From the NCBI GenBank assembly GCA_016181895.1, contig JACOYL010000012.1, forward strand, positions 1 to 59,069: a stretch of DNA of 59,069 bases, read 5' to 3'. The first letter of the stretch is position 1; each line of letters begins with the position of its first letter. This DNA comes from Candidatus Pacearchaeota archaeon (lineage in GTDB: Archaea > Nanobdellota > Nanobdellia > Pacearchaeales > GW2011-AR1). The notes under the pieces were generated by a model. The model worked only from the letters and a program-made list of their open reading frames with translations, was not told the origin of the DNA and searched no databases. The position numbers were made by a program, and so were the translations under genes. Positions 4,480 through 31,971 of this stretch are shown in pieces.

Positions 4480-4482
4480 TAT

Positions 4483-8083: not shown

Positions 8084-8100
8084 TTTTAAATCAGGCAATT

Positions 8101-11431: not shown

Positions 11432-12259
11432 ATGGATTTAAAGAGGGGTGAATTATTTTTTTCAGAGAGAAAAAAAGGACAAATCACTATTTTTGTAATA
11501 GCCGCTATTTTGATTGTCGCAATAGTAGGATTATTTTTTCTTTTCAGAACAGGAATAATTCCCGGAATCGGAGGCGGAACAAAAGAAACAAATGTGAACG
11601 CGTTTTTGAATTCGTGCATCGAAGACAAAATAAAAGAATCTGTTAATTTAATTTCCCTTCAGGGAGGGTATACGAAACCTGTTCCATTAAGCGTAAAATT
11701 CAGATTTCAAAATGAAGATTATTACAACATTTCTTATTTGTGCTACACGTCTCAAAATTATGTGCCATGCGTCAATCAAAACTCGCTTTTAATCCAAAAT
11801 GTTGAAGATGAAATAAAAAATTACATCTCAAATGACGTTGAAACCTGTTTTAACGAATTGAAAGACAACTTTGAAAAACAAGGATTTGACGTCGCTCCAA
11901 ATTCCGGATTGAATGATTTTAATGTTGAATTGGTGCCGAAAAAAATCGCGATAAAAACAGATTCTGAATTTATACTGACGAAAACCGATGAAACAACAAC
12001 ACAGGAAAATTTTGAGGTTATAATTTTAAGCAGAAGCTATGAAATATTGCAGGTTGTCCAGGAAATTGCAAACCAAGAAGCGGAATTTTGCAATTTCAAT
12101 CTGGACGGATTTATGCTGACATATCCTGAATTCGAAGTGGAAAAGTTCAGCCTTGCGGAAAAAGGGGTGATTTACACTGTAAAATACATAGATACAAATG
12201 AAAAATTCAGGTTTGCAATCAGGAGCTGCTTTATACCTCCTGGCTTCATTGCCAACTAA
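11432..12259 (+). CDS. Prepilin-like surface protein 1 (RKKG/QITIF type)
   Basis: A 275-residue protein. Residues 14-38 read RKKGQITIFVIAAILIVAIV then more hydrophobics. A basic stretch, Gly then Gln, and a 20-residue helix is the archaeal class III (prepilin/archaellin) signal, with cleavage expected after Gly16. The globular part contains SLQGGY, YLCYTSQNYVPCV and VETCFNELKDNFEKQGFDV, all matched by the 17316-18101 protein, so they are paralogs. Four or more conserved cysteines suggest disulfides outside the cell. A TATA box (AATTTATAAGC) lies about 25 bases upstream. It is the first gene of a large surface locus and probably forms an extracellular filament or complex. The family is unnamed to me. 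Confidence 0.7.
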   Translation: MDLKRGELFFSERKKGQITIFVIAAILIVAIVGLFFLFRTGIIPGIGGGTKETNVNAFLNSCIEDKIKESVNLISLQGGYTKPVPLSVKFRFQNEDYYNISYLCYTSQNYVPCVNQNSLLIQNVEDEIKNYISNDVETCFNELKDNFEKQGFDVAPNSGLNDFNVELVPKKIAIKTDSEFILTKTDETTTQENFEVIILSRSYEILQVVQEIANQEAEFCNFNLDGFMLTYPEFEVEKFSLAEKGVIYTVKYIDTNEKFRFAIRSCFIPPGFIAN

Positions 12260-12274
12260 AATGAAAAACAAAAA

Positions 12275-12388
12275 ATGACAAAGCATGATAAAGAAATGAA
12301 AACTAAAATGGAATGGGTTAATCACCAACCCTCATCAAGGAATATCCCTTATGTTAAGAAGTATTTAAAATTAATTAATTCAAAATGA
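12275..12388 (+). CDS. Small ORF, 37 residues (tentative)
   Basis: ATG at 12275 to TGA at 12386, encoding MTKHDKEMKTKMEWVNHQ and so on. Its stop overlaps the start of the next small ORF (ATGA), which is the only support besides its position. The DNA includes CACCAACCCTCATCAAGG, resembling the CACCCTGCCTCATCAAC repeat found twice farther on. It may be a real micropeptide gene or chance. Confidence 0.2.
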   Translation: MTKHDKEMKTKMEWVNHQPSSRNIPYVKKYLKLINSK

Positions 12389-12564
12389 TAAAAAAAACAG
12401 AAACAAAAAAAATAGAAAAAGGGTTCAAAAAAGGAACCCTAATAGTAAGAGACTTCTCCCAAGATGATAATGTATACAATTACAACAATTATATAAATAT
12501 TTCTTACTGCAACGCACCCGCTAATTTTCCTAATTCAGTTAAATTAAATGTTTCAAATTTATAA
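12385..12564 (+). CDS. Small ORF, 59 residues (tentative)
   Basis: ATG at 12385 to TAA at 12562. It is lysine-rich at the start, then has GTLIVRDFSQDDNVYNYNN. It overlaps the 37-residue ORF by four bases, and a third ORF of 30 residues (12566-12658) starts one base after its stop, so three small ORFs are arranged in a coupled chain. Codons 12-19 contain a perfect hairpin AGGGTTC/GAACCCT (12420-12440). No family is recognised. The chain lies between the first pilin-like gene and the first giant gene. Confidence 0.3.
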   Translation: MIKKTETKKIEKGFKKGTLIVRDFSQDDNVYNYNNYINISYCNAPANFPNSVKLNVSNL

Positions 12565-12637
12565 AATGAAAAAAATAGAATGCACCCTGCCTCATCAACC
12601 AAATGTTCAGGAAATTAAAGTTTATAAATTTTACCAT

Positions 12638-12710
12638 GGCGGCATAGCATATTGCTAATGCACCCTGCCTCATCAACAGGGTGAAGTGGGTTGAATTCCC
12701 ACTGCCGCCA
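12638..12710 (+). ncRNA. tRNA-like cloverleaf with aberrant loops (possible degenerate tRNA)
   Basis: The 73 bases fold as a full cloverleaf with every stem perfect: acceptor GGCGGCA/TGCCGCC, D-stem GCAT/ATGC, anticodon stem CCCTG/CAGGG and T-stem GTGGG/CCCAC, plus a 3' A. The loops are wrong for a working tRNA. The D-loop ATTGCTA lacks GG, the T-loop is TTGAATT instead of TTCRANN, and the anticodon loop has nine bases (CCTCATCAA). With one C-A mismatch it could be read as a seven-base loop with CAT. It ends 18 bases before the giant gene's ATG. A 19-base piece of it is duplicated at 12581-12599. It could be a pseudo-tRNA or a leader element. Confidence 0.45.
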
Positions 12711-12728
12711 CGATGACAAAAAAAGAAA

Positions 12729-15700
12729 ATGAAAAAAATAAAAAAGGAAACAGGGATAAGTTTGATTGTAATCGCATTAATGCAAATAATGATAATGCTC
12801 ATTTCCATAAGTTCCGAGAGTTACGCAATCAGCCAGAATAATAATTTTAACAATATTAATATAATTGAAAATGATTTTGGGAAGTTAATAAATCTCGGTT
12901 TTGATTTCCTCGTCGGATTTTTGGCGATAAAACAGATTGCTTCGGTTTCAGCGCAGGATGATCAGATTTACTGCTGTGAAAAAAGATTAGATAGTTATGG
13001 GGGTGGATTGTGCACAGAAGTAAATAATAATACTGAATGCGACAGCTCTTACAGAACAAATCCCTCAACATGTCAACCGCTTCTTGATGGAACCGGGGGA
13101 ACTTCCTTCTGCAGAATGGGAACATGTGTTTTTGACAATGGATTAAGTTGCAGTGATAACAGCGTTCAAACATTTTGCGAGGCAGACGGAGGAGAATGGA
13201 TTTTTGACAGTTCTGCCAATGTTCCCGAATGCGACAGGGGCGCGTGTGTTTTTCCGGACTCGGCTGTTTTTTCAACACTGAGACAGTGCGAATTGGAATA
13301 TTTATCCAGGGGTTTGGACACAAGCGACATTGATTCCAGAGATGATTATGATGAAACTCAAACTATTTTGCTTTCACTTGCATTGTCATCAGGAGAAAAC
13401 AAAGGAGCGTGTGTTCTTTCTGGGGGGGCTTGTAGATTTGAAACAGGCGCTGAATGTGAAAACGACGGGGGAACCCATTTCCCCGGATTTTTATGCACGC
13501 ATCCTGATTTGCAGGGTGATGAAAATTTTGGAGTTAATTGTTTTCCCACAAGTACTGTAAGTTGCTTGAATGGAAAGGACGAGATTTATTTCATGGACAG
13601 TTGTCAACAACCTGGAAATATTTATAATGCGTCAATGGTAAAAGAGCCAAATGAAGATTTTAACATGGTTGACATCGACGATGGGAATGATGGAGACGAT
13701 GATGATTATTGGGCTTATGTTGTTTCAAAAACAAGCAGTTGTGAACTTGATTTAAATGACGATAATTCCTTGCAAACCTGCGGAAACTGCGCAAGAACAT
13801 CAAGCAGCGTTTGTTCCGAAACAACAACAGGGGAAACGCACATTCAAGACGGAGATTTTGTCTGTAAGGATTTGAGATGCGAGTATGCTGATGAGGTTTT
13901 CAATCACGGAGAAAGTTTTTGTGTTTACACAAGCGCGATAGGGCAGCAATTAATAAATTACAAAAGTTATAATGGAGAGAGTGATGGAAATACAAGCGAT
14001 GTAATTTCTACCGATGCTCCCGGAAGCGAACACTGGAAATTAAGCTGCATTAACGGGAAAATACATCCTGAGCCTCCGGATAGTTTTGGAAGAGTGCAAG
14101 TATGCGTTCCAAAAATAATAAGCCAGGAAATAACCTTGCCAGATGGAACCAATGACACAATAAGTTTCAGGACAGCAACTCTTGAAAACAATTTGGCTTC
14201 CTTATGCGTTTCCTACAATCCTCTTCAGGAAAAAGTAGGCGATAAAATGGAAGACATACAGCAAAGCATTGATTTTTGCGAGCAAAATCCTCATTGCTAT
14301 TGGAAAGAAATGTTTATCGACGACAATGATGATGACAAAGGCAATGATGATTTCAAGTTCAAGATTTGCGTTCCAAGATATCCGCTTGGAACTTCTGACT
14401 ATTGTCCCATGGCAACTCTTTCATGCCCTACTGTTTATGTCAAGGGAGAAGATATAGAAGATGTAGTTTTAAGAAGCGGGTTGTGGGATGTGTATGCAAA
14501 CGAATATTGCGAGAAGCCTATTTTTGCGGAAAAAATGAACAACCTCTGTGTTTCTTTCGGGGATTGCGGAAATTATGTGAATTACATCGGAGAGGGAACA
14601 AATGATAATATTGAGATAAAAAGGAACAAGGGAGATAAAAGCCATAATTTGAATGACAACTGGCCGTATGAAGACGGAGATGACAATTGGGATTTCAGCA
14701 ATTACATTGGTTTTGCAAATGAAACTAATTTTTTACCACAAGCCGCGGTTTCGGGATTAACTCTTGGAGAAGAAACCTGCCCTCCCGGAACCCCTCCTGA
14801 TGAATGCGCGATTGATTTGGGAAATGTTAATGTGAAGATTGGGGGAAATTTATTGACAAGTAATTTAAAGATAGCAAATGCATTGGGAGGTATTGGAGCA
14901 TTGACTTTTATAGGCACCAAAATATTTGGAGATATAGCATTAGTTCAAGGAGTTCAAAACGTAATACTAACAATTGAAAGCAGAGGAAGTACGCAATATT
15001 TCTATTATACTCAACCAACTGCCACCACCGGTCCTATTATTGCTCCTGCCGCCGGCGCTGTAGTCGGAGCAATTATCGGCGCGCGTCTCGGAAGTTTTCT
15101 TGCAGAACAGGCAGGTGTTGTTCCGGGTGTTGCTAATATTTATATTTTAAGCGGGGCGATTGCAGGAGGTACAGCAGGATATGCTTTGGTCAGTGGTTGG
15201 ATCGCAGGTCAGTGGATAGCATGGGGAGCATACACTGGGTGGGGGTTTGTTGCAGCTGTGGCAATATTGATATACTTAGAATGGTCCGGCGCAGGAGAAA
15301 TAGAAACAAGAAACATTGATTTTGTTTGCAATCCGTGGCAGGCACCGACAGGAGGGGATTGCGAAAGATGCAATGAAGATTCCTTGATTCCATGCACACA
15401 ATATGCTTGTGAAAACATAGGGCAATTATGCAAATTTGTTGAAGACGACACAACCACGCCATTTTGCATAAGTGAAAGTTCAAGCGACAATGTTCCTCCT
15501 ATATTAACACTTGGAAGTTATGATGATGCCGCATATGAAATAGACAATGCAGCAGAAAATTTTAGTGATTTGGAAATCATAATTGGAGAAAGGGAAAGCG
15601 ACAGAAGATACCCTGGACCTGTTGTAGTTTCAGGGGAATCTGGAAACAATGTAGGCTGCATACAGGAAGACACAGAAGTCATATTGAATTTAAACACAGA

Positions 15701-16976
15701 CGAGTTTGCGCAATGCAAATTCAGTTTTGAGGCAAATGAACTTTCAGAAACAATTAACAGCAACGGAGAAATTGAAATCGGGGGAAATTTCGTTGGAAAT
15801 AATGAATGGAAAAAAGCACATGTTCTCACAATGCAAACCCCGACATTGGGAAGCCTTGACCCTTCGTTCAATTCAGAACAGCAAAACACAGCCGCGTATA
15901 TAAGATGTAAGGATTATTATAATAACCCCAACATAATTCCTCAAGGTTTGTACAAGGTAAAATTCTGTGTTGAAGCAAGACCAGACATAGAACCGCCGAT
16001 AATAAACAGCATAGAGCCTGCAACAAACTCTTATCTGCCTTTCGAAACAACTGAAAAAGAAATAGACATATGGTTGGATGAAAGAGGAAGCGGAAGTTGC
16101 AGATATAGCACTTCAATAGGAACAAGTTATGAAAATATGCTTGGTAATAGTGATGCAGACAATACTAGAGAGTGCACAACAATCGGCTTAAAAACAGCAA
16201 AGGGAATTTTATGCAACGGAATGACTCTAACAGGAATTGTTCCAGGAGAAAACAAATTCTATATAAGATGTTCCGATGATGAAACACCGCCAAATGCAAA
16301 TCAACAGGATTATGAATACAAATTATTTTCAACAGAAACGCAATTGTCAATTAACTCAATTTCATTAACAACGCACAACAGCTTCGGAGATAGAGATTAC
16401 AATTTGGATATCATCGGAACCACGGAAACAGAAGTAACGGGAGGGGGAGACGACTTCAATATTGATTTGAAAGCGATAACTTCGGGAGGAAGCGATGGAG
16501 GAAAAGCGATTTGCGGATATGAATTTACCGATAGCAGTGGATTTGTATTTTCAGATAATTTCTTTTCGGACATAACAGGCACGAAAACACACACACAAAA
16601 CGGTCTTGGACTTAATAGCGGGAATTGGAATGTTTTAGTGTCGTGCGAAGACAACGCCGGAAATGAAATAGAAAAATCAGGAACATTCAACCTGTCTGTG
16701 GATTCACAGCCTCCGATTGTTACAAGAGCGTTCAAGGAAGGAAACAAACTGACATTGTTCACAAACGAGGAAGCAAAATGTTCTTATGGAACCCAATTGA
16801 ATTATTGCTCGCAAGGAACAGTTGACTCTGGGGTTTCAATAACAACAGGCTTTGCAAAAGAGCATTCAACCTCTTGGATTCCGGGACAAACTTATTACAT
16901 CAAATGCAAGGACTTGTTCGACAAGGAAAATCAAGGATGCGCAAGAATAATTGTTCCCAATTTCGAGGTTGTTTGA
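12729..16976 (+). CDS. Giant Cys-rich multi-domain membrane protein (1415 residues)
   Basis: An N-terminal hydrophobic segment (SLIVIALMQIMIMLISI, about residues 10-27) is followed by a region starting YCCEK that has dozens of cysteines and many acidic loops. The middle (about 715-860) holds several glycine-rich membrane helices (PAAGAVVGAIIGARLGSFLA and neighbours). A C-PWQ-P-GG-C-C-CN Cys cluster follows, then Ig-like beta domains to the C-terminus (DSQPPIVTRAF, NEEAKC, YYIKCKD). The N-terminal half matches the 18189-19934 protein and the C-terminal half matches the 20593-23043 protein, so this is the fused version of that pair. It probably sits in the membrane with large disulfide-bonded ectodomains and works with the pilin-like proteins. 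Function unknown. Confidence 0.7.
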   Translation: MKKIKKETGISLIVIALMQIMIMLISISSESYAISQNNNFNNINIIENDFGKLINLGFDFLVGFLAIKQIASVSAQDDQIYCCEKRLDSYGGGLCTEVNNNTECDSSYRTNPSTCQPLLDGTGGTSFCRMGTCVFDNGLSCSDNSVQTFCEADGGEWIFDSSANVPECDRGACVFPDSAVFSTLRQCELEYLSRGLDTSDIDSRDDYDETQTILLSLALSSGENKGACVLSGGACRFETGAECENDGGTHFPGFLCTHPDLQGDENFGVNCFPTSTVSCLNGKDEIYFMDSCQQPGNIYNASMVKEPNEDFNMVDIDDGNDGDDDDYWAYVVSKTSSCELDLNDDNSLQTCGNCARTSSSVCSETTTGETHIQDGDFVCKDLRCEYADEVFNHGESFCVYTSAIGQQLINYKSYNGESDGNTSDVISTDAPGSEHWKLSCINGKIHPEPPDSFGRVQVCVPKIISQEITLPDGTNDTISFRTATLENNLASLCVSYNPLQEKVGDKMEDIQQSIDFCEQNPHCYWKEMFIDDNDDDKGNDDFKFKICVPRYPLGTSDYCPMATLSCPTVYVKGEDIEDVVLRSGLWDVYANEYCEKPIFAEKMNNLCVSFGDCGNYVNYIGEGTNDNIEIKRNKGDKSHNLNDNWPYEDGDDNWDFSNYIGFANETNFLPQAAVSGLTLGEETCPPGTPPDECAIDLGNVNVKIGGNLLTSNLKIANALGGIGALTFIGTKIFGDIALVQGVQNVILTIESRGSTQYFYYTQPTATTGPIIAPAAGAVVGAIIGARLGSFLAEQAGVVPGVANIYILSGAIAGGTAGYALVSGWIAGQWIAWGAYTGWGFVAAVAILIYLEWSGAGEIETRNIDFVCNPWQAPTGGDCERCNEDSLIPCTQYACENIGQLCKFVEDDTTTPFCISESSSDNVPPILTLGSYDDAAYEIDNAAENFSDLEIIIGERESDRRYPGPVVVSGESGNNVGCIQEDTEVILNLNTDEFAQCKFSFEANELSETINSNGEIEIGGNFVGNNEWKKAHVLTMQTPTLGSLDPSFNSEQQNTAAYIRCKDYYNNPNIIPQGLYKVKFCVEARPDIEPPIINSIEPATNSYLPFETTEKEIDIWLDERGSGSCRYSTSIGTSYENMLGNSDADNTRECTTIGLKTAKGILCNGMTLTGIVPGENKFYIRCSDDETPPNANQQDYEYKLFSTETQLSINSISLTTHNSFGDRDYNLDIIGTTETEVTGGGDDFNIDLKAITSGGSDGGKAICGYEFTDSSGFVFSDNFFSDITGTKTHTQNGLGLNSGNWNVLVSCEDNAGNEIEKSGTFNLSVDSQPPIVTRAFKEGNKLTLFTNEEAKCSYGTQLNYCSQGTVDSGVSITTGFAKEHSTSWIPGQTYYIKCKDLFDKENQGCARIIVPNFEVV

Positions 16977-17250
16977 CGCTCGCCTTCGGCTCGCTTTTTG
17001 GCTCGTTCTGTGAACTCGCTTATTGATATAAATATTAATGTATAAAATCCAATGTTAAATTACCGAACAAATTTGTTTGACAGTTAAATTGATTTCTTGG
17101 ATGATGTGAAATATACAAAAGAGTTTAATCATGAAAAAGTGGTGAAGGGATTTCGCCAATAAAAATATTAATGCGTATAATTTTTAACGCGTAGCGTAAT
17201 TGTTAATGAAAGTGAGTTTTATTGTTAATTTCAGTTTGCAGGGCGGGAAC
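16977..17250 (+). repeat. Dispersed intergenic repeat, copy 4
   Basis: Starts with CTCGCCTTCGGCTCGC just after the giant gene's stop, then TTATTGATATAAATATTAAT. The middle carries CAAATTTGTTTGACAGTTAA, shared almost exactly with copies near 32.88 and 37.34 kb, and further AATATTAATGCG motifs. It ends with the short G-run CAGGGCGGGAACAAATTAAT near 17239-17250. The G-run end lies upstream of the next gene's TATA box. Confidence 0.7.
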
Positions 17251-17315
17251 AAATTAATTCAAGTTTTTCTTTCAGAATAAGAAGATTTTTTAAACTAAAT
17301 TCCCTTAAAAATATT

Positions 17316-18101
17316 ATGAAAAAGGAGGAAAGGATTTTATCGGATAATCGCGGACAACTTACGATTTTCGTCATAGCCGCGATTGTCATTGTCGGAATCA
17401 TAGGGATGATTTATTTTTTCTTTCCGTCCGTTCTTGTGAATCTTGGAGTTGTTTCCGGAAACCCAAGTGCATTCATGCAAGATTGCATTGAAGAAGAAAT
17501 CCAAAATAATGTTGAAACAATTTCCCTTCAAGGAGGTTCTTTGGAGCCGGAAAATTTTATTTTATACAAAGACCAGAAAATAGAATATCTTTGCTACAAC
17601 GGCAATTATTACCTTCCCTGCGTGATGCAGCAGCCGTTGCTGAAGCAGCATATTGAAAGCGAAATCGAAAGGGGAATAAAAAATCAGGAAGATGTTTGCT
17701 TTGAAAACCTAAAGGACAGTTTTGAAAGGCGGGGTTTTGACATTTCGCTTTCAGAAGGAGAAACATTTGTAGAATTGCTTCCAAAAAAAATCTCGGTGAC
17801 ATTTGAAAAAGAAATTACATTAACCCAAGGAGATGAAAGCCAGAGGTTTGAAAAAATAAACGTCGTTTTGAACAACAATCTTTATGAATTGACGAGCATT
17901 GCGGATTCAATATTGAACTGGGAGGCAAGATACGGAGACTCTGAAACAACGCTGTACATGGGATATTATCATGACTTGAAAGTCGAGAAATTAAAGCAGA
18001 GCGACGGAAGCACGATTTACATTTTGACAGACAGAAACAAAGGAAATAAATTCCAGTTCGCATCAAGAAGCGTTGCATGGCCTCCGGGAGTTGACATTTA
18101 A
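17316..18101 (+). CDS. Prepilin-like surface protein 2 (NRG/QLTIF type)
   Basis: A 261-residue paralog of the 11432-12259 protein. Residues 9-36 read SDNRGQLTIFVIAAIVIVGI plus more hydrophobics, a class III prepilin signal with cleavage expected after Gly13. Shared landmarks in the globular part are ISLQGGS, YLCYNGNYYLPCV, VCFENLKDSFERRGFDI and VELLPKKI. A C-terminal FASRSVAWPPG matches FAIRSCFIPPG of the first copy. TATA-like TTTTTTAAAC lies about 25 bases before the ATG. It heads the second pilin-plus-giant unit, which supports the view that the pilin-like and Cys-rich proteins act together. Confidence 0.7.
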   Translation: MKKEERILSDNRGQLTIFVIAAIVIVGIIGMIYFFFPSVLVNLGVVSGNPSAFMQDCIEEEIQNNVETISLQGGSLEPENFILYKDQKIEYLCYNGNYYLPCVMQQPLLKQHIESEIERGIKNQEDVCFENLKDSFERRGFDISLSEGETFVELLPKKISVTFEKEITLTQGDESQRFEKINVVLNNNLYELTSIADSILNWEARYGDSETTLYMGYYHDLKVEKLKQSDGSTIYILTDRNKGNKFQFASRSVAWPPGVDI

Positions 18102-18188
18102 AATGGAAAATAAAAAAAGAATAATAAATATCCAATCTTCATCAATTAATTTTTATTGCAATAAAAACCATTTAAAATTATATAAAAA

Positions 18189-19934
18189 ATGAAAAACAAA
18201 AAAAAGTTAGCGGTTTTGGGAATTTTGATTTTGGGAATTTTCCTGGTAGTTATTATACAAAATAATTTGACAAGAGCCGTCGGAGAACCGACTTATTGCT
18301 GCGAGAAAACCAAAGCGGGAGCTTGGTGCCAAAATGTTCCTGACATTTCGCAATGCGACACTTCTGGAAATTTTAGATCTGTTCCCACTTCGTGCGAGGC
18401 AACAAGTTATTGCAAGTTGGGAACATGCGTGAACACTCAGGAAGGAGTTTGCATGGAGAACACGCCTCAAAGAGTTTGCGAACAGCCTGTTGGAGGAATT
18501 GCAGGAGGACTTTGGTTTTCTTCCAAAGTTGGAGAAATTCCGCAATGCCGATTGGGATGCTGCCTTATCGGAGAGCAGGCCGCATTTACAACGCAGACAA
18601 GATGCGAGCAGCTTTCTTCATTGTATGGATTGGAAATTAATTACAGGACAGACATTTCATCGGAAACTTCGTGCATTGCATCCGCTTTTCCAAAAACAAA
18701 AGGCGCTTGTGTTTTTGAGGAAGAATTCCAAAAAAGCTGTCGTTTTGTTACGAGAGAAGAATGCAACACTTTGCAAACACAAGAACAAAATGTTGAGTTC
18801 CACGAGGGATTTTTGTGTTCTTCCGAGGAATTGGGAACAATATGCGGACCGAGCGAGAAAACGACAATATTTGAAGGCAAGGATGAAATTTATTTTTTAG
18901 ACACCTGCGGAAATCAGGGAAATATTTATGATGCGAGCAGGCAGAATGACAGGCAGTATTGGGACAAGATAATAGGAAAGGCGGAAAGCTGCGGCTTTGG
19001 AAATCCAAATGGAAACGCCCAAAACCCCGCCTGCGGAAACTGCGATTATCTTTCAGGAAGCACGGGAGCGTTGTATGACCGATTAAAAGACGGAACAAAT
19101 GCACGCCCGATTTTTGGAGACTACGTTTGCAGAAATTTGAATTGCAGATTTGAAGCCGACTTGAACAACGACGGGGACACGAGCGATGATTTGGAAAATG
19201 AACAATTTCAGCATGGGGAAAGCTGGTGCGCGCAGTCTGCAGGAGTTTCGCAAATAATTTCAGAAGACGGTTTCATTTCGGGAACGCCAAACTCATCAAA
19301 AGAAAACATTCCCGGAAGCAGGTATTTCAGAATGGTTTGCTACAACGGCGATGTTACCATAGAACCTTGCGCGGATTTCCGGCAGGAAATTTGCATTCAA
19401 TCAGAAATTGAAACAAACTCGGGAATTTTCAGGAATTCAGCGTGCCGTGTAAACAAATGGCAGGATTGCATAGCACAGGAAAGACAGGAAGACTGCGAGA
19501 ATTTCGAGCAAAGGGATTGCAAATGGATTGAGGGATATTCAATTTTGAAAGATGAGAAAGGAAAGGAAAAAGAATTGCAAAACAACGAGAGCGAAAACGT
19601 GAAAGCTTCGTGCGTTCCAAAATATTCTCCGGGATTTAATTTCTGGGATGAAACAGGGGATGCAAACGCGCTTTGCGTGCAGGCAAGCAAGACTTGCACT
19701 GTAAAAGTCAACAAGAATATTGCCGGAGTCATACAAGGCAGGAGCATTTCCGATATTTGCGATGATAATCAATTAAAACAAGATGTTGAAGGATGCAATT
19801 GCTTGAAAGATTCATGGCTTGGAGAAGCGAACAATTTGTGCATTCAATTCGGAGACTGCGGAGTTTCAAAAAATTACATGGGCGACGAGGGTTTCAACGA
19901 ACTTGATGATTTGTTCAACAGGGAAAAGGAATAA
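18189..19934 (+). CDS. Large Cys-rich surface protein, homologous to N-terminal half of the 1415-residue protein
   Basis: A 581-residue protein. Residues 5-25 form a signal or anchor helix (KKLAVLGILILGIFLVVII). The rest is a cysteine-dense ectodomain: YCCEK near residue 36, CKLGTC, CRLGCC, GKDEIYFLDTCGNQGNIYDAS and QHGESWC. The last two also occur, with small changes, in the giant protein (GKDEIYFMDSCQQPGNIYNAS, NHGESFC). It stops after NLCIQFGDCGVSKNYMGDEG, equivalent to the NLCVSFGDCGNYVNYIGEG point where the giant protein continues into its membrane domain. It therefore looks like one half of a split gene. No membrane helix is present after the N-terminus. Confidence 0.7.
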   Translation: MKNKKKLAVLGILILGIFLVVIIQNNLTRAVGEPTYCCEKTKAGAWCQNVPDISQCDTSGNFRSVPTSCEATSYCKLGTCVNTQEGVCMENTPQRVCEQPVGGIAGGLWFSSKVGEIPQCRLGCCLIGEQAAFTTQTRCEQLSSLYGLEINYRTDISSETSCIASAFPKTKGACVFEEEFQKSCRFVTREECNTLQTQEQNVEFHEGFLCSSEELGTICGPSEKTTIFEGKDEIYFLDTCGNQGNIYDASRQNDRQYWDKIIGKAESCGFGNPNGNAQNPACGNCDYLSGSTGALYDRLKDGTNARPIFGDYVCRNLNCRFEADLNNDGDTSDDLENEQFQHGESWCAQSAGVSQIISEDGFISGTPNSSKENIPGSRYFRMVCYNGDVTIEPCADFRQEICIQSEIETNSGIFRNSACRVNKWQDCIAQERQEDCENFEQRDCKWIEGYSILKDEKGKEKELQNNESENVKASCVPKYSPGFNFWDETGDANALCVQASKTCTVKVNKNIAGVIQGRSISDICDDNQLKQDVEGCNCLKDSWLGEANNLCIQFGDCGVSKNYMGDEGFNELDDLFNREKE

Positions 19935-19961
19935 GATGAAAAATAAAATTAAATTTGAGAA

Positions 19962-19985
19962 GATTTAAATAATATCAATTGATAT
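19962..19985 (+). promoter_or_regulatory. TATA box plus palindromic operator of the wHTH/RelE-like module
   Basis: TATA-like GATTTAAATA (19962-19971) is followed at once by the perfect 14-base palindrome ATATCAATTGATAT (19972-19985), and the ATG follows 8 bases later. This layout, with the operator overlapping the transcription start, suits autorepression by the winged-helix product. Confidence 0.55.
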
Positions 19986-19992
19986 CACCAAA

Positions 19993-20283
19993 ATGGAAAG
20001 TGCTTACAAAAAGAAAAACGAAATAGCAAGGTCGCCAACACTTCAAACTGTGCTAATGGTTGAAAAATTTATTGATGAAAACAGCGGAGAATATACTAAG
20101 ACACAAATATTCCAAAATTTGCCAAAAAAAGTGATGTGGCAGACATTTCAAGTAATAATGGAATATCTTGAAAACATTAACAAAATTGCTTATGATAGAA
20201 AAGGGTATGTTGTTTATATCTGGAATCCAAAGTTTGCGGCTAAATACAAAAATAGGGATGATTTAACATGGAAGGGGAAATAA
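19993..20283 (+). CDS. Winged-helix protein, probable antitoxin/autorepressor of a RelE-like module
   Basis: A 96-residue protein. LQTVLMVEKFIDENSG, then TKTQIFQNLPKKVMWQTF (recognition-helix region) and VIMEYLENINKIAYDRKGYV give a helix-turn-helix plus a beta wing ending VVYIWNP. It overlaps the RelE-like gene by 16 bases in another frame, the usual arrangement of a toxin-antitoxin pair. The promoter palindrome directly upstream suggests autorepression. The module sits between two halves of what is one gene elsewhere in this locus. Its codons are more AT-rich than those of the flanking genes. Confidence 0.65.
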   Translation: MESAYKKKNEIARSPTLQTVLMVEKFIDENSGEYTKTQIFQNLPKKVMWQTFQVIMEYLENINKIAYDRKGYVVYIWNPKFAAKYKNRDDLTWKGK

Positions 20284-20591
20284 AATTTGCAAATGAAAAA
20301 TTGAAAGAAGCATTTGAAAATCTCAAAGAAATTGACAAAGATCTTTATGAACAAATAGATAAAGCAACAGAAGAAATTAGAAAAAATGTTTTCTGCGGAA
20401 GAAATGTGAAAAAAGAATTAATTCCAAAATCATTAATTCAAAAGTATGGTATCAACAACTTATGGATTTATAATTTAAGAAGCGGATGGAGATTGTTATA
20501 TTCAGTAACTTCCCAAAACAAAATAGAGATTATAGCAATTGTTTTAGACTGGATGAATCATAAAGATTACGAGAGGTTATTTAAATTTTAA
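20268..20591 (+). CDS. RelE/ParE-superfamily toxin-like protein
   Basis: A 107-residue protein. The N-terminal helices (FENLKEIDKDLYEQIDKA) are followed by a beta sheet with LIPKSLIQKYGINNLWIYNL, RSGWRLLYSV and IEIIAIVLDWMNHKDYERLF. The RxGWRLLY strand and the IxAIVLDWxxHKDYxRxF end are typical of archaeal RelE-like toxins, which cleave mRNA on the ribosome or inhibit it. A C-terminal Lys/His/Tyr set (HKDYERLF) is present. The 816-residue gene begins one base after its stop, so the module has become part of the surface-protein transcription unit. Confidence 0.7.
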   Translation: MEGEIKFANEKLKEAFENLKEIDKDLYEQIDKATEEIRKNVFCGRNVKKELIPKSLIQKYGINNLWIYNLRSGWRLLYSVTSQNKIEIIAIVLDWMNHKDYERLFKF

Positions 20592-20592
20592 G

Positions 20593-23043
20593 ATGAAAAA
20601 TAAATATTTCCCGACGAGAAAAGACATTGCATTCTCGCAGATTTTTCTGCTTGTGATTTCGATTGTTGCTTTTACTTGGGCGATTGGCTCGGAAGTTGGA
20701 GTGGTGAGTGGGGAAATTATAATTCCAAAAGATGTGACAATAAATAAAGTATACCAAGACTCTAAAATATTACAAGAAAAATTTCCGAATATACAAACCC
20801 TTAGAGATTTTTTATATGCTAATTACGAAGGAAAAATTGGATGTACTTTAGGAGAAGATATTTGTGTAACAGAAGATTATAGATTTTCAGAGAGTTTTTT
20901 TGATGTCGCATTAAAAATACAACAAAAAAAAGGTGCACCCCTTACAGCACCAAAACCTGCGCCAAAAAAAGGTGCGTATCAATTAACTTGTAGTGATGGT
21001 TATAAGGTTAGTGATAATGGAAGAAATTGTCTAAAAATAATTGAAACCAAAGATCCTGTAAATGGTGCTTGTGAAGAAGGATTTATTCCAAATTCAGATA
21101 AAACAAAATGTGTAAAATTAGAAGCCCCGCCACAAGGAGCAGGACCTGCTGGAGAAGAACCCCAATTAAAACCAGGAGATTCTGGATTTTGTGATCTAAA
21201 AGATGATGCTGGTAAATTAATTAATGCAAAGGACGTAACTTGCGCTTCAGCTCTTGGCATCCTCGGAGAAAGTGCTTTATTTGCAGCAGGAATTTATGGG
21301 GTTGTAACTTTATTTGGACCAATTTTTGGACTTGATGATGAACAAACAAAAGCAATTTCAGAAGCAGGTGCTTTAGGTGTTTTGGTTGGGAATTCAGTTT
21401 CGGGATTTGGTGCAAAGTATCAATGGGGTTGGGCTTCAACAGAATATGGTGGAGTTTCCGGCGCAACTTATGCAGGGCTTTTAGCCGCTGGAGCATACTT
21501 CCTCGCAAATTACAGAGATGAAGATTCAAAGAAAGTGCAGTTTTCCTGCGTTCCATGGCAAGCCGGTTTGGGAGGAGACAACTGCGAAGTTTGCAATCAA
21601 GGATTTTTGCCGTGCAGCGAATACCAGTGCAAATCCTTAGGACAAAGTTGTGAACTTGTCAATCCGGGAACAACAGATGAGAAATGCGTTTGGGTTAACA
21701 GAAATGATGTAACATCTCCAATCATAGAAGCATGGATTGGAGGTTTGTTGAACGCGGATTACAGATACAATCCTGATGCAGCGATTCTTCCTCCGGACAG
21801 AGGAGTAAAAGTTGAATATCTGAAATCAACACTTGGAGACAACTGCATTCCAGCATTCACTCCTTTGAGAATTGGAATCAGTTCAAACGAGCCGGCAAAA
21901 TGCAAAATCGACGGATTGAGAAAAAATGATTTCGAAACAATGGATGTCTTAATGAGCGGCGGGCTTTTGCAATACAATCATACATTCTCTTTGTCTCTTC
22001 CAGGAAGCGACAATTTGAATTCAGCGGGAATCGAAGTGCAAAACGACGGAAACTATGATTTGTTTGTAAGATGCGAGGACGCAAACGGAAATGCAAACGA
22101 GGGAACATTTGTTTTCAAATATTGTGTTGACAAAGGCCCTGATGTAACCCCTCCTTTGATAGTTGCGACAAGCATTCCAAACAACGCGCCTGTTGCCTAC
22201 AACCAAACCTCTTTGAATTTGGAAGTTTATGTGAACGAGCCAAGCGAATGCAAGTGGAGCCACAACAATCGGGAATATGATTCAATGGAAGTTCAGATGA
22301 GTTGCGACACGTTCATAAGAGACAACAACGCCCAAGGGCTTTACACATGCCGAACAACTTTGGAAGGAATAAAAGACAGGTTTGTAAACAAATTTTTCTT
22401 CAGATGCAAGGACAAGCCGCAAGCCCAGGAAAACGAGAGAAATGTAAATCAGGAATCTTTTGAATACAAGGTAATAGGAACCCAAGCTCTTGTCATTGAT
22501 TACGCTCTTCCAAACGACACGATAAGGGATTCCACAAGCGTTGTCAAAGTCACGTTCGAGACAAAAACATCCGCGGGATTTGACGAGGGAAAGGCAGAAT
22601 GTTTCTTTAGTGATACTGGAGACGATGATGATTTTACAACAAGGTTCCTTGAATCAAATTCGCATTTGCACAAGCAGGAATTATTCCTTCCTTCGGGAAG
22701 CTATGTTTACTACATAAGGTGCATTGATTTGGGAGGAAATCGGGATGATGAAACAATAACATTCAGCGTTGAGTCTGATGATCAAGCCCCGATTGTCGTA
22801 AGAGCGTATCATGAAGAACAGTATTTGAAACTGATAACAAACGAGGAAGCAAAATGCGTTTACGATGTAGTCGATTGTTCCTATCCTTTTGATTCAGGAA
22901 TTCCAATAACAGAAATAGACGGAACAAATCATTTTACAGACTGGAACATAAATAAAAATCTTTATATAAAATGCCAGGACGCATATGGAAACCAGCCGTT
23001 GCCAAACCAGTGCAGCATAATCGTGAAGAGCAGTGATTTCTAA
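20593..23043 (+). CDS. Large Cys-rich membrane protein, homologous to C-terminal half of the 1415-residue protein
   Basis: An 816-residue protein. An N-terminal membrane helix (FSQIFLLVISIVAFTWAIG) and a unique region with two short Cys loops come first. Glycine-rich membrane helices near residues 215-310 follow (ESALFAAGIYGVVTLFGPIF, TYAGLLAAGAYFLA). The Cys cluster FSCVPWQAGLGG-NCEVCNQG matches FVCNPWQAPTGG of the giant protein. Ig-like domains then run to the end (DDQAPIVVRAYH, TNEEAKC, LYIKCQDAYGNQ). With the 18189-19934 protein it makes up the equivalent of the fused giant protein. It starts one base after the RelE-like stop codon, with no separate promoter seen. Confidence 0.7.
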   Translation: MKNKYFPTRKDIAFSQIFLLVISIVAFTWAIGSEVGVVSGEIIIPKDVTINKVYQDSKILQEKFPNIQTLRDFLYANYEGKIGCTLGEDICVTEDYRFSESFFDVALKIQQKKGAPLTAPKPAPKKGAYQLTCSDGYKVSDNGRNCLKIIETKDPVNGACEEGFIPNSDKTKCVKLEAPPQGAGPAGEEPQLKPGDSGFCDLKDDAGKLINAKDVTCASALGILGESALFAAGIYGVVTLFGPIFGLDDEQTKAISEAGALGVLVGNSVSGFGAKYQWGWASTEYGGVSGATYAGLLAAGAYFLANYRDEDSKKVQFSCVPWQAGLGGDNCEVCNQGFLPCSEYQCKSLGQSCELVNPGTTDEKCVWVNRNDVTSPIIEAWIGGLLNADYRYNPDAAILPPDRGVKVEYLKSTLGDNCIPAFTPLRIGISSNEPAKCKIDGLRKNDFETMDVLMSGGLLQYNHTFSLSLPGSDNLNSAGIEVQNDGNYDLFVRCEDANGNANEGTFVFKYCVDKGPDVTPPLIVATSIPNNAPVAYNQTSLNLEVYVNEPSECKWSHNNREYDSMEVQMSCDTFIRDNNAQGLYTCRTTLEGIKDRFVNKFFFRCKDKPQAQENERNVNQESFEYKVIGTQALVIDYALPNDTIRDSTSVVKVTFETKTSAGFDEGKAECFFSDTGDDDDFTTRFLESNSHLHKQELFLPSGSYVYYIRCIDLGGNRDDETITFSVESDDQAPIVVRAYHEEQYLKLITNEEAKCVYDVVDCSYPFDSGIPITEIDGTNHFTDWNINKNLYIKCQDAYGNQPLPNQCSIIVKSSDF

Positions 23044-23420
23044 ACCTTTGGCTCATTGCTCTGCAATTCGCATTTTGAAATAAATGATAATATAAAAATA
23101 ATTTGCAGTCAATTTAATGGTTGATAAAATTTGTTTGGAAGTTAAAATGGATTGATTGGGTGAGCGGGAAATCGACGGGATGAAATTAAAAGATTAATAT
23201 GCAGAGAATTTATCATAAGGTGAATATGCCGGTGGGATGAGAAAAGTTTTATAGAGAAATTAACATGCTCAAATCCGACTTTATTGAATTCGACAAAAGT
23301 TTTTCGCTGATGAAAATTGTTAATCCAATATCAAACTAAACGCGTGGTGTAACTATTGAACAAATTTAGAAAATTCTTTGTTATTAAAACTTGGATTGTT
23401 TTGCGGGGCGGGTGGGCGGG
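23044..23420 (+). repeat. Dispersed intergenic repeat, copy 5, ending in a canonical G-quadruplex motif
   Basis: The gap starts with TTGGCTCATTGCTCTGC. AAATTTGTTTGGAAGTTAAA near 23127 and GATTAATATGCAGAGAAT follow. A second left-type block (CTCAAATCCGACTTTATTG) near 23270 suggests two fused copies. The right end is GGGGCGGGTGGGCGGG at 23405-23420: four G-runs with one-base loops. A TATA box (ATTTATAAG) lies a few bases later and serves the next gene. Confidence 0.75.
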
Positions 23421-23453
23421 AAAATTTATAAGTTGATTTTGTTTTGATAAATA

Positions 23454-23951
23454 ATGAGCAAAAGAGGCGTTGTCAATCTGTCATTCGGGATGATTTTTTC
23501 CATAGTCATGATAATAATTTTTCTCACATTTGCTTTTTATGCGATACAAAAATTCCTTAGCATTCAAAACACGGCGCAAGCCGGAAAATTCGTGAATGAT
23601 CTGCAAAACGACATTGACAGAATGTGGAAATCCTCACAAGGAGAACAGGAACAGGAATACACAATCCAAGGAAAAGTAAGATACATTTGTTTTGTAGATT
23701 ATGAATTCTCTAAAAGAGGAGAAAAAGAAAATTTTTATGACGAATTGAATCAAGTTTATTACGGAGAGGAAAATCTGTTTTTTTATCCTGTTGGCTCGGG
23801 AGAAGGATTTGATTCCGCGGCTTTAAGGCATGTTGACATTGAAAAAACAACAGAAATTGACAATCCGTTGTGTTTTGAAAACATAAATGGAAAAATTTCA
23901 TTCACGATAAAAAAAGATTTCAACGAGGCATTGGTGACGATTTCGGAGTAA
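23454..23951 (+). CDS. Prepilin-like surface protein 3 (SKRG/VVNL type)
   Basis: A 165-residue protein starting MSKRGVVNLSFGMIFSIVMI and continuing hydrophobic to residue 32. The short basic leader, Gly5 at the expected cleavage point and long helix fit an archaeal prepilin, although Val replaces the more usual Gln at +1. The rest is a small mixed domain with QAGKFVNDLQNDIDRMWKSS, a helix typical after the pilin stem. Two cysteines (RYICFVDYEF, NPLCFENING) are spaced to form one disulfide. The TATA box is about 25 bases upstream. It is the first gene of the downstream run 23454-26488, likely one operon. Confidence 0.65.
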   Translation: MSKRGVVNLSFGMIFSIVMIIIFLTFAFYAIQKFLSIQNTAQAGKFVNDLQNDIDRMWKSSQGEQEQEYTIQGKVRYICFVDYEFSKRGEKENFYDELNQVYYGEENLFFYPVGSGEGFDSAALRHVDIEKTTEIDNPLCFENINGKISFTIKKDFNEALVTISE

Positions 23952-23956
23952 GATAA

Positions 23957-24157
23957 ATGAGGGGAAAAATTAAAAATCTGTTTAACGATAACATCGATAT
24001 TTTATTTGAGATAGGATTAATTTTGATTGCAACAGCATTATTTTTGGTATTTGATAAAAAGTTTAGTTTTGGGGTTTGGTATTCCATAATCTTAATTGTT
24101 TTAATATTGATAATTTTAGTCTTTGCCGTTAAATATCTCAGGGAAAACAAAAAATGA
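23957..24157 (+). CDS. Small two-helix membrane protein (66 residues)
   Basis: Two membrane helices (about residues 16-32, EIGLILIATALFLVF, and 40-60, WYSIILIVLILIILVFAVKY) joined by a short Lys/Phe loop, with basic ends. It begins five bases after the previous gene and overlaps the next by four (ATGA), so it is clearly in the operon. A small membrane partner or platform accessory for the pilin-like proteins is plausible, but no family is recognised. Confidence 0.65.
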   Translation: MRGKIKNLFNDNIDILFEIGLILIATALFLVFDKKFSFGVWYSIILIVLILIILVFAVKYLRENKK

Positions 24158-25074
24158 AAAACAAAAAAGGTGTTGAGTTTCAGTTTGCATGGCTTTTCGG
24201 GCTTGTTGTAGGAATGATTATTCTGGTTCTTGCAATTTACGCCGTCTCAAGAGTTATTCAAACAGAGGAACTTTCAATCGACGCCGCGACGGCAAAGGAA
24301 ATCGGCGTTTTGCTTAATCCCTTGGAAACAGGATTTGAGTCTGCCAAAACCACGACCCTGGTTTTGCCGAAGGAAACAAGAATATTCAACGGATGCAACA
24401 ATGAAAGTGTTTTTGGAAGGCAAACCCTCAGGATTTCGCAGAGAAGTTTCAACAAATGGACAGATACCAATATTAACGTCGGTTTTTCAAACAAATATAT
24501 TTTCTCGGAAAATTTCACAGAAGGAAAAAAATTCTTTATTTTTTCAAAGCCTTTTGAATTTCCCTTCAAGATTTCCGACGTGATTTACATAACTTCTTCA
24601 AATAAAAAATATTGTTTTGAAAATGCTCCAGAAGATATTTCAGAAGAACTCTCTAATTTGGGACAAGAAAATATTTTCACTGATGATTGCCCTGACGAAA
24701 GCATAGAGGTTTGCTTTTCGGGAAATTGCGAAATTAAAGTTGATTTGTTTTCAGGATACGTCGAGAAAAATTCAGAGAGAATGCATTTTCCTTCGGATTC
24801 AATGATGTACGCGGCGATTTTTTCAAGCCCCGAAATTTACGAATGTCAAGTTGAAAGATTGATGATGAGGGGAACCCAATTGTCCATTTTATATTCCGAG
24901 AAATCGGACATCGTGGCTTCCAGAGGATGCAACTCCGACTTGAAAAACGAGCTTGTAATTTTGAGCGACAGATTAAACCAAACAACAGGTTCTGCGGGAT
25001 TGAATACAGCATTGATAAATGACATTGAAGATATTAAAGAAAAAAATGAAAATGCTAACTGCAAGTTGTGGTGA
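24154..25074 (+). CDS. Prepilin-like surface protein 4 (NKKG/VEFQF type)
   Basis: A 306-residue protein starting MKNKKGVEFQFAWLFGLVVG with a helix to about residue 31. This fits a class III signal with Gly6 at -1 and, at +3, a Phe/Gln-containing start of the stem helix. The ectodomain holds several cysteines (IFNGCNN, KYCFENAP, DDCPDESIEVCFSGNCEIKV). It ends with a predicted helix and an NANCKLW tail. The ATGA overlap with the small membrane gene and the next start five bases after the stop place it inside the operon. Confidence 0.65.
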   Translation: MKNKKGVEFQFAWLFGLVVGMIILVLAIYAVSRVIQTEELSIDAATAKEIGVLLNPLETGFESAKTTTLVLPKETRIFNGCNNESVFGRQTLRISQRSFNKWTDTNINVGFSNKYIFSENFTEGKKFFIFSKPFEFPFKISDVIYITSSNKKYCFENAPEDISEELSNLGQENIFTDDCPDESIEVCFSGNCEIKVDLFSGYVEKNSERMHFPSDSMMYAAIFSSPEIYECQVERLMMRGTQLSILYSEKSDIVASRGCNSDLKNELVILSDRLNQTTGSAGLNTALINDIEDIKEKNENANCKLW

Positions 25075-25078
25075 AAAA

Positions 25079-25507
25079 ATGAAAATAAGAAAGGCGACGA
25101 AAAAAGATTTGAAAGAAGTGGCCAAGATATTCAGAGAAGAAACTTCGAAAAAACCATATTCCACAAAATGGACCGAACAATCTTCATATAAAGCAATATG
25201 TGAATTATTCAAAAAAGCGGAAATTAATCTTGCAGTTATTGACGATAAAATTGTCGGGTTTATAATCTCCCGCATAACCCCAGAAAAAAAATATGCTTAC
25301 ATTGAAGAATTATGGTTAAAGTCAAAATATCAGGGAAAAGGCACAGGAAAATTCTTGATGAAATTTGTTGAAGATAAATACAAAAAGAAAGGGGTTAAAA
25401 ATATTGGTATTACAGCCAATCAAAAAGCAAAAGCCCTTTATTTTTACAAAAAATTGGGATATAAAAAGGAACATTCCTTTTTCCATATGAACAAAAAACT
25501 AAAATGA
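25079..25507 (+). CDS. GNAT-family N-acetyltransferase
   Basis: The start at 25079 (MKIRKATKKDLKEVAKIF) is chosen over a longer frame that overlaps the previous gene, giving 142 residues. Family marks: IRKATKKDLKEV at the N-terminus, YAYIEELWLKSKYQGKGTG (motif A with the Q/R-x-x-G-x-G/A acetyl-CoA loop near residues 78-96) and ALYFYKKLGYKKE (motif B). It could acetylate a protein N-terminus or a small molecule. It sits between prepilin-like genes 4 and 5, overlapping the latter by four bases. Either it modifies the surface proteins or it was inserted as a passenger; its codons are AT-richer than those of its neighbours. Confidence 0.85.
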   Translation: MKIRKATKKDLKEVAKIFREETSKKPYSTKWTEQSSYKAICELFKKAEINLAVIDDKIVGFIISRITPEKKYAYIEELWLKSKYQGKGTGKFLMKFVEDKYKKKGVKNIGITANQKAKALYFYKKLGYKKEHSFFHMNKKLK

Positions 25508-26010
25508 AATCCAAAGGACAACTGAAAATCCAGCAAATGGCATTCATGTTAATTGCACTTATATTGTTTTTCGCATTGGTTGGAATGTTTTTTCTCACGC
25601 TTCAGTTTTCAAAAATAAAAGAAACCGCGGGAATTTTGGAAGAAAAAAACGCGTTGCTTCTCGTGACAAAACTTGCGAACTCTCCGGAATTTTCCTGCGG
25701 GGAAAGTTTTGGAACTGGAAAAGTGAATTGTGTTGATTCCGATAAAGTCATGGCTTTAAGGAACAATGCCAAAAAATACAAGGATTTCTGGGGTGTGAAC
25801 AACATAGAAATAAGAAAGATATATCCTGAAAACAACGGAAAGGAATGCACTGCCGGAATCTATCCGAATTGCGACATAATAAAAATAGAAAAAGGAATAA
25901 TAACTTCTGAATACCCGAATTTCATATCGCTTTGCAGGAAAGAGTCTGTGGGAGACGAAAGCTTTGACAAATGCGAGATTGCGAAATTAATGGTGAGTTA
26001 CGATGGTTGA
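25504..26010 (+). CDS. Prepilin-like surface protein 5 (KSKG/QLKIQ type)
   Basis: A 168-residue protein starting MKSKGQLKIQQMAFMLIALI, with the helix running to about residue 35. KG followed by Q is the textbook archaeal prepilin cleavage context. A coiled segment (KIKETAGILEEKNALLLVTKL) extends the stem. The ectodomain has cysteines in pairs (FSCGESF, VNCVDSD, KECTAGIYPNCDIIK, SLCRKES, DKCEIAK). It overlaps both neighbours by a few bases, so it is tightly coupled to the GNAT gene before it and prepilin-like 6 after it. Confidence 0.7.
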   Translation: MKSKGQLKIQQMAFMLIALILFFALVGMFFLTLQFSKIKETAGILEEKNALLLVTKLANSPEFSCGESFGTGKVNCVDSDKVMALRNNAKKYKDFWGVNNIEIRKIYPENNGKECTAGIYPNCDIIKIEKGIITSEYPNFISLCRKESVGDESFDKCEIAKLMVSYDG

Positions 26011-26488
26011 AACGAGGAAAAAGAATAAATTCGGGCAGGAAGAAATGGTTGGGTTCGCTTTGATTTTGATACTGGTGGCTGTGATTTTGCTTGTTTTTCT
26101 TGGGTTTTCCTTGAGAAGTCCGCCAAAGGAAAGCGTTGAAAGCTACGAAGTCGAAAGTTTTTTGCAGTCAATGCTTCAATACACGACAGAATGCGAGGAC
26201 AACATTGAAAGGCTTTCTGTTCAGGATTTGATTTTCTCGTGCAATGAAAATGAAAAATGTGCAGATGGAAAAAACAGCTGCGAGGTTTTGAAGACAGAAG
26301 TAGAGAGCATATTGAAAGAATCCTGGAAAATCGGGGATGAATGGCCTGTAAAAGGCTACGAGCTGATAATAAATACAGACACTCAAAGCATTTTGGAGAT
26401 AAAAGAAGGAGAAACAACAGGAAATTCAAAAGGGGCGCCGCAATATCTTCCCAAGGAAACAGATGTTTTTTTCAAGGCTTATTATTAA
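26003..26488 (+). CDS. Prepilin-like surface protein 6 (NKFG/QEEMVGF type)
   Basis: A 161-residue protein starting MVETRKKNKFGQEEMVGFAL. FG followed by Q-E-E, with Glu at +2/+3 and a helix to about residue 36, fits the archaeal prepilin pattern. The ectodomain has cysteines TTECEDN, FSCNENEKC and NSCEVLK. The C-terminal part (YELIINTDTQSILEIKEG) is beta-rich. It is the last gene of the operon; four bases overlap the end of the convergent MazF gene, so transcription probably ends here. Confidence 0.7.
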   Translation: MVETRKKNKFGQEEMVGFALILILVAVILLVFLGFSLRSPPKESVESYEVESFLQSMLQYTTECEDNIERLSVQDLIFSCNENEKCADGKNSCEVLKTEVESILKESWKIGDEWPVKGYELIINTDTQSILEIKEGETTGNSKGAPQYLPKETDVFFKAYY

Positions 26489-31416: not shown

Positions 31417-31971
31417 ATGAAAAGCATTTTATCAAAACATGACACGGAAAAAAAGACAAAAAGGAATAGAATGATTCTCGGTGGAATCCTAGTCTTCATA
31501 ATGTTTTTCAGTGTTGCGGAATACGCGCTTTTCGGACAGGATCCCGGAGAAGACGCAATCCAAACCGCGACGGACACTGAAAATTACAACGGCTTTCAAT
31601 TTTCAGAACAGAACGGCTATTGGATTTTAAACGTTGAAGAAAGCAGTTTTATCTTTTCTTACAATCCGAATGAAATTCCCAGAATAAATTCCATTGTAAA
31701 TCCAATTGAGAACTATCAGGAAAAAATCCTGTATTTGATTTCAAACAATTCCCTTGCAAATTCCGAGATAAGAGTTAATATGGCGCAATTTGTCGACGGG
31801 ATTTTGGAAACAGAAATTGAAAACTGCCGGCAGAATACAATAATCGTAAAAGAAGGAAATGAAAATAAAATAACACAAAAAGAAAATTGTATTTATATTG
31901 AAGGGAAAAAAGAGGATTTGATAAAAATTACAGATGAATTCTTGTTCAAATTGCTGAAAATAACCAATTAA
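31417..31971 (+). CDS. Membrane-anchored hypothetical protein, paralog of the next gene
   Basis: A 184-residue protein with a charged N-terminus (KHDTEKKTKRNR), one membrane helix (MILGGILVFIMFFSVAEYAL, residues 19-38) and an extracytoplasmic domain of about 140 residues. Two cysteines (ENCRQNT, KENCIYIEG) match a CDQNGTY...SCYQLN pair in the 32020-32808 protein, as do the closing helices (LIKITDEFLFKLLKI and ILKVTEKFMVESLARI). I do not know the family. A TATA box (GTTTTTAAATGC) is about 25 bases upstream. The two genes are separated by 48 bases. Confidence 0.6.
   Translation: MKSILSKHDTEKKTKRNRMILGGILVFIMFFSVAEYALFGQDPGEDAIQTATDTENYNGFQFSEQNGYWILNVEESSFIFSYNPNEIPRINSIVNPIENYQEKILYLISNNSLANSEIRVNMAQFVDGILETEIENCRQNTIIVKEGNENKITQKENCIYIEGKKEDLIKITDEFLFKLLKITN

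Follow-up and report, generated by a model that had tools for sequence, protein, structure and literature searches.

Archaeal type IV pilus loci, according to the survey that Makarova, Koonin and Albers published in 2016 (PMC4858521), combine a TadA-family ATPase, TadC, an A24 prepilin peptidase and subunits with class III leaders, and predicted minor pilins, adhesins and S-layer proteins occur as their partners; the systems of the Thermoproteales include Cys-rich components, and a nanoarchaeal ATPase was found in that survey without identified pilins. In the "dark-matter" pilin islands of DPANN archaea (Makarova et al. 2019, PMC6393860), ATPase and TadC genes are accompanied by signal-bearing proteins that were inferred to be diverse pilins. 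Here, we have analysed a surface locus of a Candidatus Pacearchaeota archaeon (assembly GCA_016181895.1) that resembles both groups; it is located on contig JACOYL010000012.1, the whole of which (59,069 nt, contig C20 of the genome) is referred to as the window, in a genome of 736 kb that is 90% complete in 24 contigs. The locus encodes six pilin-like proteins, i.e. the two copies of family A (A1 and A2) and the proteins p1 to p4, next to three large Cys-rich proteins (CF, CN and CC). It probably represents the outer half, consisting of pilin-like subunits and tip adhesins, of a class-wide, type IV pilus-like (TadA/TadC/A24) surface contact machine, which would be a core feature of Pacearchaeota and would occur in a remodelled form in the wider Nanoarchaeota class.

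The resemblance to the archaeal loci of the 2016 survey comprises the motor, the peptidase, the leaders and the kinds of partner, but the window subunits have no Pfam or NCBIfam match; for the DPANN islands, the searchable text names neither Cys-rich giants nor a class-wide p1-p4 block. The Tad/CpaF pilus is similar in its many small pilin-like proteins and in its ATPase, the closest solved structures to the ATPase described below being GspE2 of A. fulgidus (2oap) and the CpaF pilus ATPase, but here no Flp-type major pilin has been recognised, the TadC-like protein has a double length of 767 residues, and the Pfam scans have given no TadE/F or RcpA-type match. The tip complex of PilY1 and minor pilins, of the Pseudomonas type, offers an analogy of role, since a minor-pilin-like gene is followed by the gene of a large, disulfide-rich extracellular protein; there is, however, no sequence match, and the ectodomain folds of the present proteins are unmatched in the PDB. 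The motor is of a known kind. We have found no paper that names this gene set, or that describes the subunits with their folds, the Cys-rich giants and the near-universal conservation of the set in the group.

The six pilin-like proteins had been predicted in the initial annotation, and all six open reading frames are present with the expected starts and leaders, on the forward strand: A1 (11432..12259, 275 residues, leader RKKG/QITIF, where the slash marks the predicted cleavage site), with one N-terminal transmembrane helix and a conserved Cys ectodomain that carries a QGG motif; A2 (17316..18101, 261 residues, DNRG/QLTIF); p1 (23454..23951, 165 residues, SKRG/VVNLSFGMIF); p2 (24154..25074, 306 residues, NKKG/VEFQF); p3 (25504..26010, 168 residues, KSKG/QLKIQQMAF); and p4 (26003..26488, 161 residues, NKFG/QEEMVGFAL). 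Protein p1 is homologous to the N-terminus of p2, the profile comparison giving a 97% probability for the common N-terminal region, while a relation between p4 and p3 has been set aside, as their profile comparison is unconvincing. A scan of the 206 six-frame open reading frames of the window for the pattern [KR]x[GA][QV] followed by a hydrophobic helix has returned nine matches, all six pilin-like proteins among them; the remaining three have Ala at position -1 (two of the three being Sec-like signals), so that only the six are left when Gly is demanded at this position. When the leader residues are shuffled in 1000 rounds, the whole window yields 0-5 matches, typically 2, and the observed count of nine exceeds chance.

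The same site recurs across relatives, in alignments of the homologous leaders where Q has served as the anchor for A, p3 and p4 and position -1 has been left free. In the 123 anchored homologues of family A, position -1 is occupied by G (85%), A (9%) or S (6%), and positions -3 and -2 mainly by K or R; the corresponding values are G 62%, A 34% and S 3% for p3, in which the anchoring Q at +1 is invariant, and A 54%, G 37% and S 9% for p4. The homologues of p1, p3 and p4 have a near-identical G/A/S pattern at -1 and mostly Q at +1 (for p3 and p4, the anchor itself), and the pattern is less clean in p2. The conserved site can be written as K-[KR]-[G/A/S]/Q ahead of a hydrophobic helix, and the six proteins present the basic residues, the G/A(/S) at -1 and the helix of class III leaders. 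The possibility that these N-termini are ordinary signal peptides is contradicted by the retention of G/A/S at -1 and of K/R at -3 and -2 in the homologues; judging from their sequences, the leaders of the six proteins are prepilin-like.

The comparison of gene order is based on 20 whole-genome loci and 73 named loci (about 90 Pacearchaeota loci, as some records are common to both sets), each judged as far as its contig extends. The common order is PCNA-[A-CF]n-A-CN-CC-p1-p2-p3-p4-S-layer-s1-s2, and the relatives that share it carry the names of Ca. Pacearchaeota or Nanoarchaeota metagenome-assembled genomes. The genes p1-p2-p3-p4 occur in this order in 31/31 named loci, p2 and p3 are adjacent in 32/32, a Cys-rich gene directly follows A in 106 of 125 cases, and PCNA (9750..10490 in the window, forward strand), a conserved upstream landmark, lies upstream of family A in all 53 loci that hold both. 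Downstream, the conserved neighbourhood extends to an S-layer protein with an ordinary Sec signal (27882..30623; PF05124 S_layer_C, E 8e-10) and to two surface proteins with one transmembrane helix each, s1 (31417..31971, 184 residues) and s2 (32020..32808, 262 residues), all on the forward strand. Family A has been detected in 178 of the 180 genomes of the order, p2 in 220 and p3, mostly as a single copy, in 150 of the 279 sampled genomes of the phylum; where 20 loci of other orders in the class have been compared, the p1-p4 block is for the most part preserved and stands behind A-like proteins and Cys-rich giants of up to 4015 residues. In the closest relative (G045, of the same genus), the ATPase described below is present, p2 and p3 are undetected and the family A matches are weak; the genes may have been lost recently or replaced, or the assembly may have a gap. 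The gene order is, then, conserved order-wide and largely class-wide, and the initial proposal that DPANN archaea have a prepilin-type surface system in common holds in its leaders and its order, but its list of parts has to be amended: several genes of the window drop out, the S-layer gene enters, and the motor and more pilin-like subunits are encoded elsewhere.

The locus itself consists of two modules, A1-CF and A2-CN-CC. CF (12729..16976, forward strand, 1415 residues, 60 Cys) comprises a signal/helix, a CysN domain, hydrophobic segments and a CysC/immunoglobulin-like domain; CN (18189..19934, forward strand, 581 residues, 41 Cys) is homologous to its N half, and CC (20593..23043, forward strand, 816 residues, 29 Cys), with an N-terminal helix, a hydrophobic segment in the middle and an immunoglobulin-like (Big_13) C half, to its C half. 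The locus can therefore be read as a tandem duplication in which one copy is fused and the other is split; A1 and A2 share 39% identity, and relatives have one to three such modules per locus. All three predicted Cys-rich giants are accordingly real, with the qualification that CN and CC are halves of the architecture of CF. Internal hydrophobic segments, which had been attributed to the giants in general, are found in CF and CC alone, and CN has only its N-terminal signal/helix; for the immunoglobulin-like domains, support is below threshold, Big_13 matching 21 of 30 CC homologues (best E 9e-6), so that their presence in CC is weakly but repeatedly supported at the level of sequence profiles. 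Cys columns that are conserved in at least 80% of the family number 57 in CF, 42 in CN and 21 in CC.

No pilus ATPase, platform protein or prepilin peptidase is encoded in the window, as had been noted, and the search for genome-encoded PibD/EppA, PilB and PilC has led to two type IV pilus-type motors on contigs C10 and C22. Contig C22 carries a TadA/CpaF-like ATPase of 762 residues (PF00437, above cut-off), the TadC-like protein, the only A24 prepilin peptidase found in the genome (E 9.6e-16 to 6e-15) and about seven further pilin-like genes beside the motor. This ATPase is present in 266 of the 279 sampled genomes of the phylum, and the listed matches have identities of about 50-84%. No archaellum genes (archaellins, FlaF/FlaG, FlaH beside FlaI/FlaJ) have been recognised in the C10 and C22 loci, where no dedicated search for FlaF, FlaG or FlaH was run.

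Three arrangements in relatives link the C22-type motor with the subunits of the window. In locus L196, a single co-directional run contains the ATPase, an A-like protein of 549 residues, a giant with 138 Cys and p1-p2-p3-p4; in locus L195, p1-p4 adjoin the cluster 218-109-ATPase-TadC-pil235-pil344-pil129; and a block of pilin-like genes, pil344/pil147, is common to both locus types, as it stands beside the motor in Pacearchaeales, and also in L199 and L200, but follows p1-p4 instead in several other orders (G195, G354, G222, G183 and further genomes, with profile E-values as low as 1.7e-21); in G195 and G354, it is absent from the motor locus. The partner could also be the motor on C10, where another complete type IV pilus locus (L006) encodes a PilB3-like ATPase, two TadC proteins, both above the PF00482 cut-off, and canonical-looking pilins (e.g. 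KFG/QIWVET with Glu5), and motors can share pilin sets (PMC4858521). When the first 20 genomes listed as having no C10-type ATPase (presence threshold E<=1e-60) are considered, however, 19 retain p2, and nearly all of the 20 carry the C22-type ATPase, to which the genomic linkage also points; service of these subunits by the C10 motor is therefore disfavoured and very unlikely. Three small, closed or near-closed genomes of family f59 (G278, G303 and G405) have a divergent C22-type ATPase together with four C10-type ATPase paralogues; p3 is undetected in all three, and p2 in G278.

Several observations weigh against a pilus-like machine driven from C22. The motor and the subunits are on separate contigs in this genome, some genomes with the ATPase have no detectable p2, and the TadC-like protein, a candidate platform protein, matches PF00482 (E 8e-4) below the curated cut-off. 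Direct adjacency of the ATPase and p1-p4 occurs in 2 of about 150 genomes, which is near a rough chance expectation when taken alone; the argument from linkage is therefore built on the co-directional run and on the pilin block that moves between the two locus types. No obvious abundant major pilin has been recognised, and none of the six proteins has Glu at +5, this residue across homologues being F in A, S in p1, mostly S in p2, Q in p3 and V/I in p4; a Glu in this place of the mature chain is typical of bacterial major pilins, but is not universal in archaea. Lastly, the AlphaFold2 models of A2 (pLDDT 93.2; transmembrane helix 12-35, a separate helix and an alpha/beta ectodomain) and of p2 (pLDDT 89.5; a 43-residue N-terminal helix, 11-53, then a beta domain) have no Foldseek match in the PDB at E<=1e-3, and their ectodomains match no PDB pilin: as modelled, p2 looks pilin-like in outline, with its beta domain and its long helix, the latter counting in favour of the machine, and A2 does not resemble any known pilin.

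Searches by sequence are similarly silent. None of A, p1-p4 and the Cys-rich proteins has a curated match in Pfam, NCBIfam or PHROGs, stray matches such as CoV_NSP4_N and chryseo_ChrI having been discarded as far under the cut-offs; profile searches of A, p3, CC and CN against PDB sequences return nothing; PF07790 (Pilin_N) has no match among the window proteins or genome-wide; and S-layer families (PF05124 or other) match none of A, p1-p4 and the Cys-rich proteins, only the downstream gene at 27882. The lack of Glu5 and of a major pilin, the non-pilin ectodomain folds and the adjacent S-layer gene would all suit an envelope complex that is independent of any motor, i.e. a membrane-anchored assembly, cut by the A24 peptidase, which lies under or through the S-layer and does not extend; class III leaders also serve static archaeal assemblies. 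We nevertheless consider such a complex unlikely, given the co-directional run with the ATPase in L196, the adjacent clusters of L195 and the pilin block that is common to motor and p1-p4 loci.

For the pilus-like machine that we prefer, the following working can be proposed. A1, A2, p1-p4 and the approximately seven pilin-like proteins of C22 would be inserted by Sec and then cut by the A24 peptidase after Gly, Ala or Ser; the C22 ATPase and the double TadC would raise them out of the membrane and assemble a heteropolymeric pseudopilus, which may be short or long. Since every A gene lies just before that of a Cys-rich giant, the A proteins would be minor-pilin-like carriers of that giant, which may act as a disulfide-armoured adhesin of the tip or shaft, comparable to PilY1 in role without being homologous to it, and the adhesin would pass outward through the neighbour-encoded S-layer and contact another cell. 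Cleavage, assembly, filament, adhesion and host contact are all inferred steps of this proposal. As there is no recognisable major pilin and no Glu5, a short or specialised structure is favoured over a classical long pilus, and, for a reduced archaeon that is probably symbiotic, attachment to another cell would be its most natural purpose.

Domains that are active on murein or glycans, or lectin domains, recur as variable cargo of the motor loci in different Pacearchaeota: in the C22 locus of this genome (L014), an SLT plus LysM protein (3657-5606, reverse strand) and a pilin-like-headed protein with an SLT domain (14835-15941, forward strand); elsewhere, an SLT domain (L197, 13433-14194), a phage-tail-lysozyme domain (L208, 4196-6250), GH20b (L195, 5423-8866) and a LamG lectin domain (L207, 7098-8483). 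Archaea have no murein, and bacterial walls are therefore the likely target of the muralytic enzymes, whose place in the motor locus hints at bacterial partners. A murein lytic transglycosylase module has been described in Pacearchaeota and Woesearchaeota by Castelle et al. (2021, PMC8204110), i.e. in the same lineages and with surface proteins that carry SLT domains, as the motor locus does here, but without a link to a pilus-like machine, as the words "pili" and "pilus" are absent from that text. A bolder reading, which we hold as tentative and rather doubtful, is that the approximately 13 pilin-like proteins with their new ectodomain folds and the disulfide-armoured adhesins of 600-1400 residues form a non-canonical, hetero-subunit type IV contact machine, a fixed docking or penetration apparatus, that the lineage-specific muralytic enzymes of the motor locus open bacterial walls and that these archaea are episymbionts of bacteria.

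The SLT, lysozyme and GH20b genes of the motor loci might alternatively be cargo of a type II secretion-like pseudopilus that exports them or the Cys-rich giants, and many different low-copy pilin-like proteins, a GspE2/CpaF-like ATPase and a very weak Foldseek row of p2 to the type II secretion pseudopilins EpsI/EpsJ (E 1.8, TMt 0.47) agree with such a device. Since, however, the giants have their own N-terminal signal or anchor helix, for which Sec suffices, and export from monoderm archaea involves no outer membrane, so that a secretin is not expected, we regard this explanation as quite improbable. A pseudopilus for DNA uptake, which the nucleotide scavenging proposed for Pacearchaeota (PMC8204110) would suit, has been rejected as extremely improbable: ComEC (PF03772) has not been found in the 90%-complete genome by a search that is positive in 12/14 controls, and known Com pili are without giant Cys-rich adhesin-like partners.

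The window also contains genes that have been ruled out as parts, because relatives are without them, and these are lineage-specific extras. The small two-helix protein (23957), initially counted as a member of the set, parts p1 and p2 here and has no conservation in relatives; a GNAT acetyltransferase gene (25019-25507), seen in none of the relatives, parts p2 and p3 and overlaps the end of p2; a ParE/RelE-like toxin-antitoxin pair (19993/20268, spanning 19993-20591) sits between CN and CC; and a tRNA-Met gene (12638-12711) sits between A1 and CF, no tRNA having been found in 20 relative loci scanned. As other small open reading frames occur at the CN/CC junction in other relatives, the junction may be an insertion hot spot. 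The genes from p1 to p4 lie close together, their gaps or overlaps ranging from a few bases to some tens; TATA-like boxes are found at -27 to -29 of 11432, 17316 and 23454, those of 11432 and 23454 at -28/-29, and none between p1 and p4, a placement that would fit leaderless units beginning at pilin-like genes. Upstream, a putative VapB/VapC-like pair (10711-11345) lies between PCNA and A1, and the reverse strand encodes a protein of 625 residues with 30 Cys and no Pfam match (6221-8098), which some relatives (L038, L055) have kept ahead of the locus, next to primase and PCNA.

To our knowledge, it is not known how most DPANN archaea hold their hosts. The gene set that we have described is a prime suspect for the gripping of cells in a group of uncultured, tiny and probably host-dependent archaea, and it gives one of the largest DPANN groups a concrete, near-universal set of candidates: a motor with its peptidase, subunits that resemble pilins, and giant partners that resemble adhesins. 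Where the 2016 survey had a nanoarchaeal ATPase but no identified pilins (PMC4858521), there are now candidates for them, and the murein-degrading proteins of Pacearchaeota (PMC8204110), which had no assigned place before, would become associated with a surface machine.

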